Source of the DNA: Candidatus Merdinaster equi
GTDB taxonomy: Bacteria > Bacillota > Clostridia > Lachnospirales > Lachnospiraceae
Length of the DNA: 34,660 bases
Assembly: GCA_018064935.1 (NCBI GenBank)
Contig: JAGHUF010000050.1
Span: 1-34,660 of the forward strand
Direction of reading: 5' to 3'
Shown here: positions 2,056 through 11,847 of the stretch, piece after piece
Layout of the letters: every line of letters begins with the position of its first letter
Numbering within the stretch: the stretch's first letter is position 1
Translations under genes and position numbers: made by a program
Notes under the pieces: generated by a model
The model's database searches: none
Seen by the model: the letters and a program-made list of their open reading frames with translations, nothing else
What the model was told of the DNA's origin: nothing

Positions 2056-2099
2056 AAAAAAAGCGCTTCGAGTACTATTACTCAAAGCGCCTTTGCTTT
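2056..2099 (-). promoter_or_regulatory. Leader attenuator of glnN with AGCAAAGGCGCT box
   Basis: On the minus strand an 11-bp stem (GCGCTTTGAGT at 2080-2090 with ACTCGAAGCGC at 2063-2073, one G-T pair, loop AATAGT) is followed by seven T (2056-2062): a full intrinsic terminator about 30 bases before the start codon. Its left side contains the 12-mer AGCAAAGGCGCT (2086-2097). The same 12-mer folds into a rival hairpin AAAGC-AAAGGC-GCTTT (2084-2099) that uses bases of the terminator stem. The hexaloop has A at position 1 and G at position 4, as in ANTAR antiterminator targets. The fold is read from sequence; the regulator is inferred. Confidence 0.75.
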
Positions 2100-2109
2100 T
2101 ATGTATGTG

Positions 2110-2138
2110 ATAATAATCTTGATTTTCAAAAATGTCAA
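2110..2138 (-). promoter_or_regulatory. Promoter of glnN
   Basis: TTGACA (2133-2138) and TATTAT (2110-2115) are separated by exactly 17 bases, a near-perfect vegetative sigma promoter. Transcription should start near 2103, only a few bases before the rival hairpin of the leader. Confidence 0.85.
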
Positions 2139-4991: not shown

Positions 4992-7900
4992 TTAGAAAAT
5001 AGTGGCTACTCCAATTGTCAGCTCTTCCAATACGTCAAGTAACACACGAACCGTATCAAGTGAGGTGAACATTGTCACATTATTCTCAGTCGCACATCTT
5101 CTGATTGCAACACCATCCTCATAATGTACACCTGACAGTATGGCTCTTGTATTGAGCACATAACTTACATATCCGGCGCGAATTGACTTTAATATCTCAT
5201 CAGATCCTTCGGACAATTTGTGGCGCACCTTAGTTCTTATGCCATGTTCTTTAAGATAATCTGCAGTACCAATTGTCGCCTCGATATTAAATCCAAGATC
5301 ATAGAATCTCTTAACAAGAGGCAGTGCTTCCTCCTTATCCTCATCAGCAAGAGTAACCATTACTGTTCCGTAATTCTGCAAACGTATACCAGAAGCAAGA
5401 AGTGCCTTGTACATTGCTCGATGAAGCTTCTCATCATATCCAATTGCCTCACCAGTTGATTTCATTTCTGGTGACAGATATGCATCCATTCCCTTTAATT
5501 TTGAGAACGAGAACGCAGGTGCTTTCACGTACCACTTCTCTCTCTCCTCTGGATACAGTTTAAATATTCCCTGCTCCTTCAAGCTTTCGCCGAGAATAAC
5601 CTTTGTTGCTATATCTGCAAGCTGGTATCCAGTTGCCTTGCTTAAGAAAGGGACCGTCCTTGATGATCTTGGGTTTACTTCGATAATGAATACGTTGTCG
5701 TCATCATCAACAATAAACTGAATATTAAAAAGACCAACTATCCCAATTCCAAGTCCAAGTTTCTTAGCGTACGTTAAGATAATACCCTTAACTTTATCCG
5801 AAATGCTGAAAGGCGGATATACACTTATCGAATCTCCTGAATGCACACCTGTTCTCTCAACCAGCTCCATAATACCTGGAACAAATACATCCTGACCATC
5901 GCAAACTGCATCAACTTCCACTTCTCGTCCCTTAATATACTTATCAACAAGAACTGGTTTATCTTCATCAATTTCAACTGCTGTCTTGAGATAATGACGA
6001 AGATCTTTTTCTTTGGAAACAATCTGCATCGCACGTCCACCAAGTACGAATGAAGGGCGAACCAGAACAGGGTATCCAATCTCCTGCGCAGCCTTGACAC
6101 CATCTTCAATGTTGGTGATTGCCTGACCCTTTGGCTGAGGAATATTTAAATCAATGAGAACCTGTTCAAAAGCATCTCTGTTCTCAGCTCTGTCAATAGC
6201 ATCGCAGTCTGTACCAATTATCTTGACACCATACTCAACCAGAGGCGCAGCAAGGTTTACTGCCGTCTGCCCACCGAGAGTTGCTATTACACCCATTGGT
6301 TTCTCGAACTCAATGATGTTCATAACATCCTCAACGCACAGTGGTTCAAAATACAATTTGTCCGAGGTTGTGTAATCGGTAGATACGGTTTCAGGGTTGT
6401 TATTAATTATAATTGCCTGATATCCAGCTTCCTGAATAGTCTTAACAGCATGTACTGTAGAATAATCAAACTCAACACCCTGACCTATACGAATTGGACC
6501 TGAGCCCAATACAATAACCTTTCTCTGGTCAGAACATACGGACTCATTCTCTTCCTCGTAGGTCGAATAGAAATATGGAATATAGCTGTCGAATTCTGAT
6601 GCACAGCTATCAATCATCTTATATACAGGGAATATATTATTCTCTTTACGTATATCGAATATCTGATGTGCTGTCTTGCCAAGAAGTTTTCCAATCTCAA
6701 TATCTGAGAATCCCATTCTCTTGGCATTTCTAATTTCATCAACAGATGGATTGGCCTGAAGTGCTTTCTCCTCATTGATGATATTAGCAAATACTCTTAC
6801 AAATAAAGGATCTATTCCAGTTATTCTTGAAATATCTGATAATGCAACATCTCTTCTAATCAACTCGCCAATCGCATATATACGATCATCGGTTCCCTCT
6901 TTGATATACTCAAGCAATTGACCTGTCTCATATGAATCAAACTTCGCACTGTATAAATGATAAACTCCTGTTTCGAGAGAACGAATTCCCTTAAGAAGAC
7001 TTTCCTCCATAGAACGTCCAACGCTCATCGTCTCTCCAGTTGCCTTCATCTGAGTTCCAAGTCTGTTATTTGCATCAGCAAATTTGTCAAATGGGAATCG
7101 TGGCAGCTTACTTACAACATAATCAAGTGATGGCTCAAAACTTGCCAATGTATTAGCCAAATGAATCTCATCGAGTCTGTATCCAACAGCAATCTTCGCA
7201 GATACTCTGGCAATAGGATAACCTGAAGCTTTACTTGCAAGTGCTGACGACCTGGAAACTCTTGGATTAACCTCTATCAAATAATATTGGAATGATTTTG
7301 GATCCAGCGCAAACTGTACATTGCAACCACCCTGAATTTTTAGTGCTCTTATAATCTTAAGCGCAGAATCACGAAGCATATGGTACTCTTTGTTCGTTAA
7401 CGTCTGCGACGGACATACTACGATTGAATCACCAGTATGAACGCCAACCGGGTCAATATTCTCCATATTACATATTGCAATAGCAGTATCGTTAGCATCC
7501 CTAATTACTTCGTATTCAATTTCCTTATAACCACGAACACTCTTCTCAATTAAAACCTGATGCACAGGTGATAATACAAGTGCATTTTTTAATATATCCT
7601 TGAGTTCTTCTTCGGAATCCGCAAAACCACCACCAGTTCCACCAAGGGTAAAGGCCGGCCTTACAACAACAGGAAAACCAATTTTCAGAGCAGCCTCTAC
7701 ACCCTCCTCCATTGACTCTGCAATGAGAGAAGGAAGAACTGGTTCCTTCAAAGAAATACACAATTCCTTAAACAGCTCACGGTCTTCAGCCTGTTCAATA
7801 CTTGTGAAATCTGTACCCAGAAGTTCAACATTACACTCCTTCAGTACTCCTTTTTTTGCCAGCTGCATAGCGAGATTAAGTCCTGTCTGACCACCGATGC

Positions 7901-8165
7901 CCGGAAGAATCGCATCCGGTCTCTCATGTCTGACAATTTTAGCCACATATTCGAGATTAAGCGGCTCCATATAAACTTTGTCTGCAATAGCAGGATCGGT
8001 CATTATAGTCGCAGGGTTTGAATTACACAGGATTACTTCGTAGCCTTCTTCTTTTAATGCAAGACATGCCTGAGTTCCTGCATAATCGAATTCCGCAGCC
8101 TGTCCAATAACAATTGGACCTGATCCAATTACAAGTACTTTTTTTATGTCTGTACGCTTAGGCAT
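4992..8165 (-). CDS. carB: Carbamoyl-phosphate synthase, large subunit
   Basis: Makes carbamoyl phosphate for pyrimidines and arginine from bicarbonate, two ATP and ammonia channelled from CarA. At 1057 residues it is full length. The two homologous ATP-grasp halves are plain: each begins with a VLGSGP(I)RIGQ-like block (near residues 10 and 555) and holds an EVNPR(S/V)SR block. An oligomerisation region lies between them and an MGS-like allosteric domain covers about the last 120 residues. The ATG at 8165 has GGGAGG 8 bases upstream; a GTG at 8174 would place that site inside the gene. The ATG overlaps the end of carA by 8 bases, so the two are translationally coupled. A single CarB suggests both arginine and pyrimidine synthesis may depend on it, but other copies could lie elsewhere. 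Confidence 0.97.
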
Positions 8166-9264
8166 TTGCAGCACCTCCCTTCACCTCATCCATCATACGG
8201 ATGAAATCCTCAAACAGATAGAAACTGTCCTGCGGTCCCGGAGCGCTCTCAGGATGGTACTGGACACTTGAAACATGCTCATGAAGACACATAACACCCT
8301 CAACAGTCTGATCAAGTAAATTCTTATGTGAAACATATAGAGGCGTAGCAAACAAGCTTCCCTCATCAACTGCATATGAATGATTCTGTGAAGTAATCTC
8401 AACCTTATCAGTGTAGAGATTAATTACAGGATGATTACCTCCACGATGTCCAAACTTCAATTTATAAGTTTTTGCACCGTATGCAAGACACAGAATCTGG
8501 TGACCAAGACATATTCCAAAAATCGGAACTTTTCCCTTTATTGCTTTGACTGCATCAATAACAGGTACTGCATCTGTTGGATCGCCAGGACCATTTGACA
8601 CGAAAACTCCATCCGGATTAAACGCAAGAATATCTTCTGCCTTTGTATCCCATGGAACAACAGTTACATTTACCCCTATCTTGTTAAATGAACGCACGAT
8701 ATTCTGCTTCATGCCACAGTCAATTGCAACAACATGATATTTAGGATTGTCCACCTTATACTGTTTAATCTCTTTTGTAGAAACTCTGCTTACCTGGTCA
8801 TGACGTAGTTCTGTATTCTTGAGTTTCTCCAAACCTTCTTCTAAAGAGGTTTTTGCGTCCGTTATCAGAACCTTACAGCTTCCATAATCACGAATGATTC
8901 TAACAATTTTTCTTGTATCTACACCACAAATACCACAGATATCATATTTTTTCATGATATCCGACAAAGTGTCTGTACTTCTGAAATTGGAGGGTTCTTC
9001 GGTGTATTCTCTTGAAATAAGAGCACTGATGGTTGGGACAGCTGTCTCATAATCTTCTGTATTCATTCCATAATTACCAAGAATCGGATACGTCATTACA
9101 ACAGCCTGATCGGTGTAAGACGGGTCGGATAGAATCTCCTGATATCCCGCCATAGAGGTATTAAATACAAGTTCTGCAACTTTTTCCGTTTCAGCTCCAA
9201 AAGCGTAACCACAGAACTCGTGTCCATCCTCCAAGATGATTTTACGAGTGAATTCTTTTTTCAT
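8158..9264 (-). CDS. carA: Carbamoyl-phosphate synthase, small (glutaminase) subunit
   Basis: Splits glutamine and passes ammonia to CarB. The 368-residue protein has the N-terminal CPSase_sm domain and a class I glutamine amidotransferase domain with the nucleophile Cys252 in FGICLGHQ, and His337 and Glu339 in QYHPES. The ATG at 9264 is chosen because the conserved [16 protein letters not shown] block then starts at residue 8, as in the family; an in-frame ATG at 9303 would add 13 unlikely residues. AAAAGGA and AAGGGG lie just upstream. It is the first gene of carA-carB, behind a promoter and a leader terminator shared in design with glnN and purF. This leader, not a PyrR-type or T-box leader, is the visible control. 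Confidence 0.96.
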
Positions 9265-9338
9265 GATTCCTTTTCCCCTTATGCATTCATACCCTATGCA
9301 CATAGCTTTCAGTTTTATCCAACAAGCAATTTACTCCC

Positions 9339-9381
9339 AAAAAAGGCACTTCGACCAAGGTGGTCGAAGCGCCTTTGCTTC
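9339..9381 (-). promoter_or_regulatory. Leader attenuator of carA with AGCAAAGGCGCT box
   Basis: The strongest of the three copies. The stem GGCGCTTCGACC (9362-9373) with GGTCGAAGTGCC (9345-9356), 12 pairs including one G-T, is followed by six T (9339-9344). Three more A-T pairs can form at its base. The 12-mer AGCAAAGGCGCT lies at 9368-9379. The rival hairpin GAAGC-AAAGGC-GCTTC (9366-9381) uses terminator stem bases and shows the same A1/G4 hexaloop. Compared with the glnN and purF copies the outer stem sequence differs on both sides in a pairing-preserving way, which favours an RNA structure over a DNA operator. Confidence 0.78.
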
Positions 9382-9387
9382 CATAAA

Positions 9388-9416
9388 AATATATTATGAT
9401 TTAAGCTTCATGTCAA
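9388..9416 (-). promoter_or_regulatory. Promoter of carA-carB
   Basis: TTGACA (9411-9416) and TATATT (9388-9393) with a 17-base spacer. The expected start is about 9381, which is the first base of the rival hairpin. Confidence 0.85.
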
Positions 9417-10373: not shown

Positions 10374-11759
10374 TCATTCTTCGCAAGGTGTCACAGTTGG
10401 GTATTCGCCTGTGAAACAAGCCGTACACAGAGGTAAATCACCTGTCATCTGAGTAATATCTTCCACCTTCATATATCCAAGAGAATCAGCTCCAATTCGC
10501 TCACGTATTTCTTCGACACTGAACTTATTTGCTATCAGCTGCGAATTATCAGGCACATCTGTGCCATAATAACACGGATGTAAAAAAGGAGGTGACGATA
10601 TTCTTACATGAACTTCAAGCGCACCCGCCTCTCTAAGCATTCGAATAAGATTCGCAATTGTTGTTCCTCTAACAATTGAATCATCAATGAGAACAATCCT
10701 TTTTCCCTTCACCACATCACCGAGCACACTAAGCTTCATATGGACTGAAGACTCTCGTTCTTTCTGAGTCGGTTTTATAAAGGTTCGACCAATATAGCTA
10801 TTTTTGTGAAAAGCAAAAGCAAAGGGAAGTCCAGCCTCCTGTGCATATCCCTGTGCTGCTGCAAGACCAGATTCTGGAACTCCAGTTACAAGATCTGCCT
10901 CCACAGGATATGCCTTGGCAAGAGCAGCTCCACCTCTTATCCTTGAACTGTATATGCTGACATCATCCATCACAGAATCTAATCTCGCAAAATAAATATA
11001 TTCAAAAATACAATGTGCCTGCTTGTCATTACATAGCTCTGTATCTGACGAAAGCCCTTCCTCTGAAATAGTCAGAATCTCTCCCGGCTTTACATCTCTT
11101 ACGAATTCAGCCCCAACTGCAGATATTGCACAGCTCTCTGAAGCTATGATATAGCTATCATCCTTCTTGCCTATGCACATTGGTTTAAGTCCTAATGTAT
11201 CACGCATAGCAACAAGCTTACGAGGACTCATAAGGATAACAGCATATCCACCGATTAGTTTGCCTGCAGCTCGCTTAACTGCCTCTTCTATTGATGGTGC
11301 TCCCGCCCTCTCTTTAGCCACAAGGCACGCAAGCACTTCTGAATCAGTCGTCCCTCTAAGTGTGAGTCCCTCAGAAAACAGCTGTTCTCTCAATTCATCT
11401 GTATTCACAATGTTTCCATTATGCACAACGGCAAGCGTTCCCTTCAGGTATCTAAATGCAATGGGCTGAGCATTTTCAATATTACTTGCACCAGTTGTCG
11501 AATATCTTACATGACCTACGCCAATATTCCCCTGAAGCTTGGACAGCGTCTCCGAATCAAACACCTCGCTCACAACGCCCATCTCTTTGTGCAGACACAG
11601 ATTCCCCAATTCAGCATCCGTTTTACATACAGCTATTCCTGCAGATTCCTGACCTCTATGCTGCAATGACATAAGCCCATAATATATATCACCAGCTACA
11701 TTAGTGCCTTCATTTGACCATATTCCAAATACACCACATTCCTCATGAACTCCGCTCAT
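10374..11759 (-). CDS. purF: Amidophosphoribosyltransferase
   Basis: First committed step of purine synthesis: PRPP plus glutamine gives phosphoribosylamine. 461 residues from the ATG at 11759, which has AAAGGA 8 bases upstream; longer in-frame starts would run into the leader terminator. A short propeptide (MSGVHEE) precedes Cys8 in EECGVFGIW, the glutaminase nucleophile exposed by cleavage. The phosphoribosyltransferase half has the PRPP loop IVLIDDSIVRGTT near residue 350. Cysteines in AHCIFEYIYFARLDS, PPFLHPCYYG and LPLCTACFTGEYPT match the four ligands of the 4Fe-4S cluster in the Bacillus-type enzyme, which makes it oxygen-sensitive. It stands apart from the rest of the pur genes, with its own promoter, leader attenuator and terminator. 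Confidence 0.97.
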   Translation of the reverse strand: MSGVHEECGVFGIWSNEGTNVAGDIYYGLMSLQHRGQESAGIAVCKTDAELGNLCLHKEMGVVSEVFDSETLSKLQGNIGVGHVRYSTTGASNIENAQPIAFRYLKGTLAVVHNGNIVNTDELREQLFSEGLTLRGTTDSEVLACLVAKERAGAPSIEEAVKRAAGKLIGGYAVILMSPRKLVAMRDTLGLKPMCIGKKDDSYIIASESCAISAVGAEFVRDVKPGEILTISEEGLSSDTELCNDKQAHCIFEYIYFARLDSVMDDVSIYSSRIRGGAALAKAYPVEADLVTGVPESGLAAAQGYAQEAGLPFAFAFHKNSYIGRTFIKPTQKERESSVHMKLSVLGDVVKGKRIVLIDDSIVRGTTIANLIRMLREAGALEVHVRISSPPFLHPCYYGTDVPDNSQLIANKFSVEEIRERIGADSLGYMKVEDITQMTGDLPLCTACFTGEYPTVTPCEE

Positions 11760-11791
11760 CTGTATATTCCTTTCGGGATTGTGTAAATAGT

Positions 11792-11847
11792 AAAAAAAAC
11801 AGCGCCACAAACAATCCTTTAACTGTTTGTAGCGCCTTTGCTAACAA
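11792..11847 (-). promoter_or_regulatory. Leader attenuator of purF with AGCAAAGGCGCT box
   Basis: 12-bp stem GCGCTACAAACA (11824-11835) with TGTTTGTGGCGC (11802-11813), one T-G pair, a 10-base loop, then eight T after a short CTG/TG step (11792-11799). The 12-mer AGCAAAGGCGCT is at 11831-11842. The rival hairpin TAGC-AAAGGC-GCTA (11830-11843) has the A1/G4 hexaloop; three further pairs (TTG/CAA) could form across a one-base bulge if the transcript starts early enough. The stem sequence differs from those of the glnN and carA copies while pairing is kept. Confidence 0.75.

Follow-up and report, generated by a model that had tools for sequence, protein, structure and literature searches.

What does a small hairpin that overlaps a transcription terminator do ahead of the carA-carB genes of Candidatus Merdinaster equi (Lachnospiraceae), and what might act on it? 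The window, i.e., the whole 34,660-nt stretch of contig JAGHUF010000050.1 analyzed here, holds three exact copies of the 12-mer AGCAAAGGCGCT (9368-9379, 2086-2097, and 11831-11842, all on the minus strand), and every leader in the window that carries it belongs to a glutamine-linked gene: carA-carB, glnN, or purF. Positions 9339-9416 span the carAB leader from the T-run of the terminator through the -35 box. At the start of these messages the hairpin, together with an ANTAR protein, would most likely turn on nitrogen genes by blocking a transcription stop. The element is very probably an ANTAR-type transcription attenuator that has been reduced to one hexaloop and would be held by the only ANTAR protein of the genome when nitrogen or glutamine is short.

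Leader architecture at carAB, glnN, and purF

The stems given in the original prediction for the three copies (GAAGC/GCTTC at carAB, AAAGC/GCTTT at glnN, and TAGC/GCTA at purF) were recovered as described, and its proposal that the hairpin and the terminator are mutually exclusive is borne out by folding (Table 1). During stepwise folding of the carAB leader, the hexaloop forms once 19 nt are present and the terminator once there are about 36 nt. This order, in which the hexaloop is followed by the terminator after the 3' arm of the latter has emerged, supports a competition between the two structures and is clearest for carAB and glnN; other weak folds compete in the purF and asnB leaders. 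Based on promoter spacing, the carAB start site is predicted at about 9381-9384, and R1, a covariance model of the element, matches the same leader at 9339-9382. The true start of purF probably lies downstream of the listed TTG, near 11759. Identity with a known Rfam riboswitch or leader was rejected, as Rfam 15 had no match in the window above a gathering threshold and the leader alone scored far below the threshold of every family. The type III glutamine synthetase (GSIII) of the window is only about 25-50% identical to the GSIII of many other leaders, which are 62-82% identical to one another, and is possibly a divergent subtype.

Table 1. Leader features and putative regulated genes in the window
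Feature	Position	Strand	Basis
carAB promoter, -35 box TTGACA	9411-9416	-	Read in sequence; promoter score 12, spacer 17 nt
carAB promoter, -10 box TATATT	9388-9393	-	Sequence reading and promoter scoring
carAB hexaloop hairpin GAAGC[AAAGGC]GCTTC, with A1 and G4	9366-9381	-	Sequence, stem covariation, folding
carAB intrinsic terminator with T-run; 5' arm includes the hexaloop and its 3' stem	9339-9376	-	Sequence, covariation, folding
carA (8158-9303) and carB (4992-8174), glutamine-using carbamoyl-phosphate synthase, putative regulated genes	4992-9303	-	Pfam
glnN promoter, -35 box TTGACA	2133-2138	-	Sequence and promoter scoring
glnN promoter, -10 box TATTAT	2110-2115	-	Sequence and promoter scoring
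glnN hexaloop hairpin AAAGC[AAAGGC]GCTTT	2084-2099	-	Sequence and folding
glnN leader terminator, overlaps hairpin	2056-2094	-	R1 match 2056-2100 and folding
glnN, type III glutamine synthetase, cut by contig end	1-2022	-	Pfam GSIII_N, Gln-synt_C, Gln-synt_C-ter
purF hexaloop hairpin TAGC[AAAGGC]GCTA	11830-11843	-	Sequence and folding
purF leader terminator, overlaps hairpin	11796-11836	-	Pattern match 11796-11842 and folding
purF, glutamine amidotransferase-phosphoribosyltransferase	10374-11810	-	Pfam

A single ANTAR protein and its link to the element

The original prediction called for an ANTAR response regulator somewhere in the genome and named its absence as grounds for refutation; the genome has exactly one Pfam ANTAR match (PF03861; C77:5255-5398, E 6.8e-16, 57.1 bits against a curated cut-off of 27.3). 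The suggested position directly downstream of glnN is not borne out: the contig ends inside glnN, and the ANTAR gene was located on contig C77, where a type-I glnA precedes it. It codes for 180 aa and closes the run asnB-pyrG-gltB-gltD-glnA-ANTAR, with enzyme names read from the translations, and the leader of this operon itself has the motif. The protein matches EutV, Rv1626, NasR, and AmiR, and in a profile search its front domain aligns to the receivers of CheY, Rv1626, and EutV. The phospho-acceptor Asp is absent from this receiver-like domain, where the Asp column of the profile alignment holds Gly, Ser, Thr, or Ala, and the signal is therefore probably contact with another protein or a small molecule, with GlnA the obvious candidate. 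Of the EutV residues that contact the hexaloop, as numbered by alignment, Lys149 and Met172 are kept, Arg142 is replaced by Met, and Tyr164 is replaced by Phe here and by His in most relatives.

The A1/G4 rule for the loop could be followed across the family in the GSIII leaders of 30 ANTAR-positive genera, chosen as being without the exact 12-mer pattern, and 19 ANTAR-negative counterparts. By eye and consensus, C[AG]A[AGT]G[AG][CT]G lies inside a terminator-like stem in 27 of the 30 ANTAR-positive leaders. A detector of hexaloops with overlapping terminators that is blind to the loop letters called 17/30 ANTAR-positive leaders versus 3/19 ANTAR-negative leaders (p = 0.007) and 1/300 shuffled leaders. 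The loops called in the ANTAR-positive genomes have A2 and G4 without exception (17/17) and A1 in 15/17, such that family-wide G4 is invariant and A1 is usual but sometimes G. This pattern agrees with the contacts made by EutV, which stacks on G4 and for which A1 merely shapes the loop (PMC8934654). A few of the ANTAR-negative relatives retain decayed hexaloops.

The element also tracks the ANTAR gene. R1 matches occur in 106/131 ANTAR-positive versus 2/19 ANTAR-negative genomes of the family (p = 2.7e-9), in 84/109 versus 2/19 without the training genomes (p = 4e-8), and in 51/115 versus 9/121 genomes in the rest of the class (p = 2.9e-11), p-values that overstate the case because genomes within a clade are not independent; the family and the rest of the class agree in the direction and size of the co-occurrence. 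In 15 genomes the element and the ANTAR gene share a strand, with the element 1.8-2.1 kb ahead, a spacing that fits glnA-ANTAR operons. The ANTAR-type reading of the original prediction is supported: the sole ANTAR gene is in a glutamine-metabolism operon, and the loop rule, the terminator competition, and the single hairpin hold throughout the family. It is unlikely that the attenuator is real but served by an antiterminator other than ANTAR, be it a different RNA-binding protein, a small molecule, or a repressor bound to the DNA at the start site. In favor of this alternative, two hexaloops are present in known ANTAR antiterminators, and a profile search of the nine ANTAR-negative genomes outside the family with R1 matches (mostly weak) found no ANTAR gene. 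It is opposed by the strong co-occurrence in two separate sets, the presence of the element ahead of the ANTAR operon itself, the fact that G4 is kept, and the GSIII leaders of another family, where the same loop occurs in dual hexaloops. The nine genomes, the few decayed hexaloops, the unconserved Arg142, and the replaced Tyr164 also count against the main reading.

A diverged ANTAR gene as the explanation of the exception genomes was rejected, as the search turned up no more than a truncated remnant, which belongs to one of the two exceptions within the family. This remnant (G137:C14:7330-7653, L328) consists of the front domain of the ANTAR protein without the ANTAR domain, has an internal stop, and may reflect a decaying regulator or an assembly gap; the genome keeps two elements. 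At two other loci (L316 and L317), divergent leader pairs, both with the hexaloop-terminator arrangement, separate GSIII from an operon whose last gene, about 7 kb away, is the ANTAR gene.

One hairpin at the predicted transcript start

To our knowledge, all described ANTAR antiterminators use two hairpins, P1 and P2. The original prediction had already suggested that one hairpin would mean a reduced or different version, and a single hairpin is the rule for the family as a whole: a P1-like hexaloop was found within the upstream 70 nt in none of 72 family leaders (0.74 expected by chance), versus 4 of 24 leaders of other families, all on GSIII, in the same scan (0.18 expected). In most strict-pattern family leaders a near-consensus promoter (TTGACA-N16-18-TATAcT) ends 8-14 nt before the AGC, and in the pooled 72 leaders a strong promoter call was made in 37, of which 36 end 7-15 nt before the 4-bp stem. 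Transcripts from such promoters would begin 0-7 nt ahead of the hairpin. Given the missing P1 and a promoter that abuts the hairpin, the element is filed as a variant of the ANTAR dual-hexaloop RNA and not as a standard member; as judged from sequence, it is a new, single-hexaloop, 5'-terminal variant of the ANTAR antiterminator RNA.

The same results bear on whether the leaders are instead usual two-hairpin ANTAR antiterminators in which P1 was missed and the real start site lies further upstream. About half of the 72 family leaders are without a strong promoter call, some GSIII leaders carry other small hairpins upstream, and P1 is required in known cases (PMC3369931), but the scan that returned nothing in the family recovered P1 elsewhere at well above the chance expectation, the carAB and glnN promoters are near consensus, and the boxes of purF and the asnB operon are readable with similar spacing, all of which renders a missed P1 very improbable. 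Three GSIII leaders from another family of the class (L296, L301, and L308) have a canonical P1 and P2 whose loops follow the same consensus, and offer a natural comparison of dual and single hairpins. In L296 and L301, AAGC[AATGGC]GCTT is followed by a linker and then GGAC[AATGGT]GTTC, and the -10 box with the highest score is about 45 nt upstream of P2. With P1 and P2 on GSIII in that family and no P1 in the family of the window, the same gene has a dual element there and a single one here, moved to the predicted start site.

In vivo, eutP depends on P1 (PMC3369931), and NasR binds P2 alone only at about 12 μM (PMC7496416). A version with one hairpin must therefore have different kinetics, and would be expected to show either tighter binding to the single hairpin or a polymerase pause. 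The authors of the EutV structure revised the minimal ANTAR site to a single hexaloop, keep P1 as a recruitment hairpin that is needed against the clock of the moving polymerase, and expect single sites only where this timing constraint is absent (PMC8934654). It is reasonably likely that the nitrogen regulon of the whole family is controlled by ANTAR antiterminators from which the P1 recruitment hairpin has been lost, with a single hexaloop at the first transcribed bases as the substitute and one ANTAR dimer catching one hairpin before transcription has gone beyond about 30 nt. If true, this would contradict the current model in which P1 recruits the protein in time, and the family-wide single-hexaloop terminators at the predicted transcript start would be a natural and directly assayable counter-example to the P1 requirement.

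Covariation and the predicted regulon

Across the leader alignment, 99.2% of the cells of the 4-bp hexaloop stem are paired and 17 cells are changed on both sides (0/500 shuffles as high), versus only 27-55% pairing in other registers. The base of the stem varies with compensation (GC, AU, CG, UA, and GU). The terminator stem covaries as well, with 62 cells changed on both sides, and the two stems covary on shared columns; since the loop and 3' strand are used by both structures, these joint constraints match what a switch predicts. It should be noted that the alignment was gathered with the loop consensus, which makes its loop invariance partly a matter of construction and the blind detector the fair measure.

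Strict-pattern instances in the named genome collection precede GSIII, amtB, purF, asnB, asnA, pyrG, gltB, and carA/carB, with further targets in gdhA, nadE, glnA, a PII-like gene, and amino-acid transporters. Leaders of two family genomes are identical to ones in Sellimonas caecigallum and Lachnospiraceae bacterium AC3007, which in itself points most likely to the Lachnospiraceae. Strict-pattern matches in Proteobacteria, without a promoter or a nitrogen gene, look like plain terminators. Although these matches, and the position of the carAB terminator downstream of a same-strand gene, would suit stem-loops that are ordinary terminators of upstream genes (e.g., of the SpoU methyltransferase before carA) with an accidental hexaloop, such an origin is extremely unlikely in light of the near-consensus promoter directly upstream of the hairpin in most leaders, the covariation of the hexaloop 5' strand, which is outside the terminator, with the 3' strand, and the placement of elements before nitrogen genes in step with ANTAR. 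In several distant genomes (L027, L160, and L306), the element is followed by the gene of a conserved protein of about 490 aa, whose start resembles MAAFEK..SGIPDMDEAL..IRLGDNVVW.

The ANTAR-type attenuator shares with the RNAs of EutV (eut), NasR (nasF), and AmiR (amiE) a short-stemmed hexaloop with A1 and G4 (PMC3369931, PMC8934654), an antiterminator that overlaps the 5' arm of the terminator, nitrogen-related targets, and the presence of an ANTAR protein. Those RNAs have a P1-linker-P2 layout and control a catabolic operon, whereas here there is one hexaloop at the predicted 5' end of the transcript, A1 is sometimes G, and the targets form a regulon of glutamine-related leaders. Predicted dual-hairpin ANTAR regulons of Firmicutes (e.g., Desulfotomaculum) likewise include several nitrogen- or glutamate-metabolism leaders per genome, but were derived from a two-hairpin model, and the leaders here are without a second hexaloop (PMC3369931). 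Two putative ANTAR-type antiterminators tied to GS-GOGAT genes in Clostridia, nitR from Clostridium acetobutylicum and Clo1313_2030 from C. thermocellum, have been discussed in passages that describe neither a leader RNA element nor a one-hairpin mechanism (PMC4676874). A literature search returned no paper that combines an ANTAR element with the Lachnospiraceae and nothing on one-hairpin attenuators. For this large gut and rumen family, the ANTAR protein is a candidate nitrogen regulator with a predicted regulon of glutamine synthesis, glutamate synthase, ammonium uptake, and glutamine-using enzymes.

Proposed mechanism

RNA polymerase would start 0-7 nt ahead of the hairpin, such that the short hexaloop hairpin is the first structure to fold. 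Left unheld, the hairpin would be displaced by the far more stable terminator, whose 5' arm is formed by the loop and the 3' strand of the hexaloop hairpin; transcription would then end before the gene. The gene of the ANTAR protein, which follows glnA as the last of the asnB-pyrG-gltB-gltD-glnA operon, would itself be under the same kind of leader. The direction of the response is one that we infer: with nitrogen or glutamine short, the protein would bind the hexaloop through G4, and the held hairpin would block the terminator and allow glutamine synthetase, GOGAT, and the glutamine-dependent enzymes to come on together.

Other copies and predicted targets in the genome

The genome (1.95 Mb) has four exact copies of the 12-mer, where simple base counting expects about 0.2; the fourth (C19:7-18) is likewise in a leader, and copies with one mismatch are, where readable, within coding sequence. 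The leader of the asnB operon has the same arrangement in different letters, GCGAC[AAGGGT]GTCGT followed by a strong terminator, with the boxes TTGACA and TACAAT. A sixth element, AAAC[AAAGGA]GTTT, is ahead of an ABC-transporter binding protein gene, and the loops of the genome's own copies are AAAGGC, AAGGGT, and AAAGGA. These targets come from pattern and model searches of a genome that is only 75% complete, and the list may be incomplete. The substrate-binding gene behind the AAAGGA-loop element (contig C6; L310:1056-1099) is of the branched-chain amino acid type, and the element adjoins a LysR-type regulator. The exact 12-mer attenuator on C19 (L019:7-3889) precedes a cluster with circularly permuted ATP-grasp-like, alpha-E-like, transglutaminase-like, and succinylglutamate desuccinylase-like genes, as named from reading of the translations. 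An alphaE homologue is also found 3' of an element match in a second locus (L136), which suggests nitrogen control of the poorly understood ATP-grasp/alpha-E cluster.
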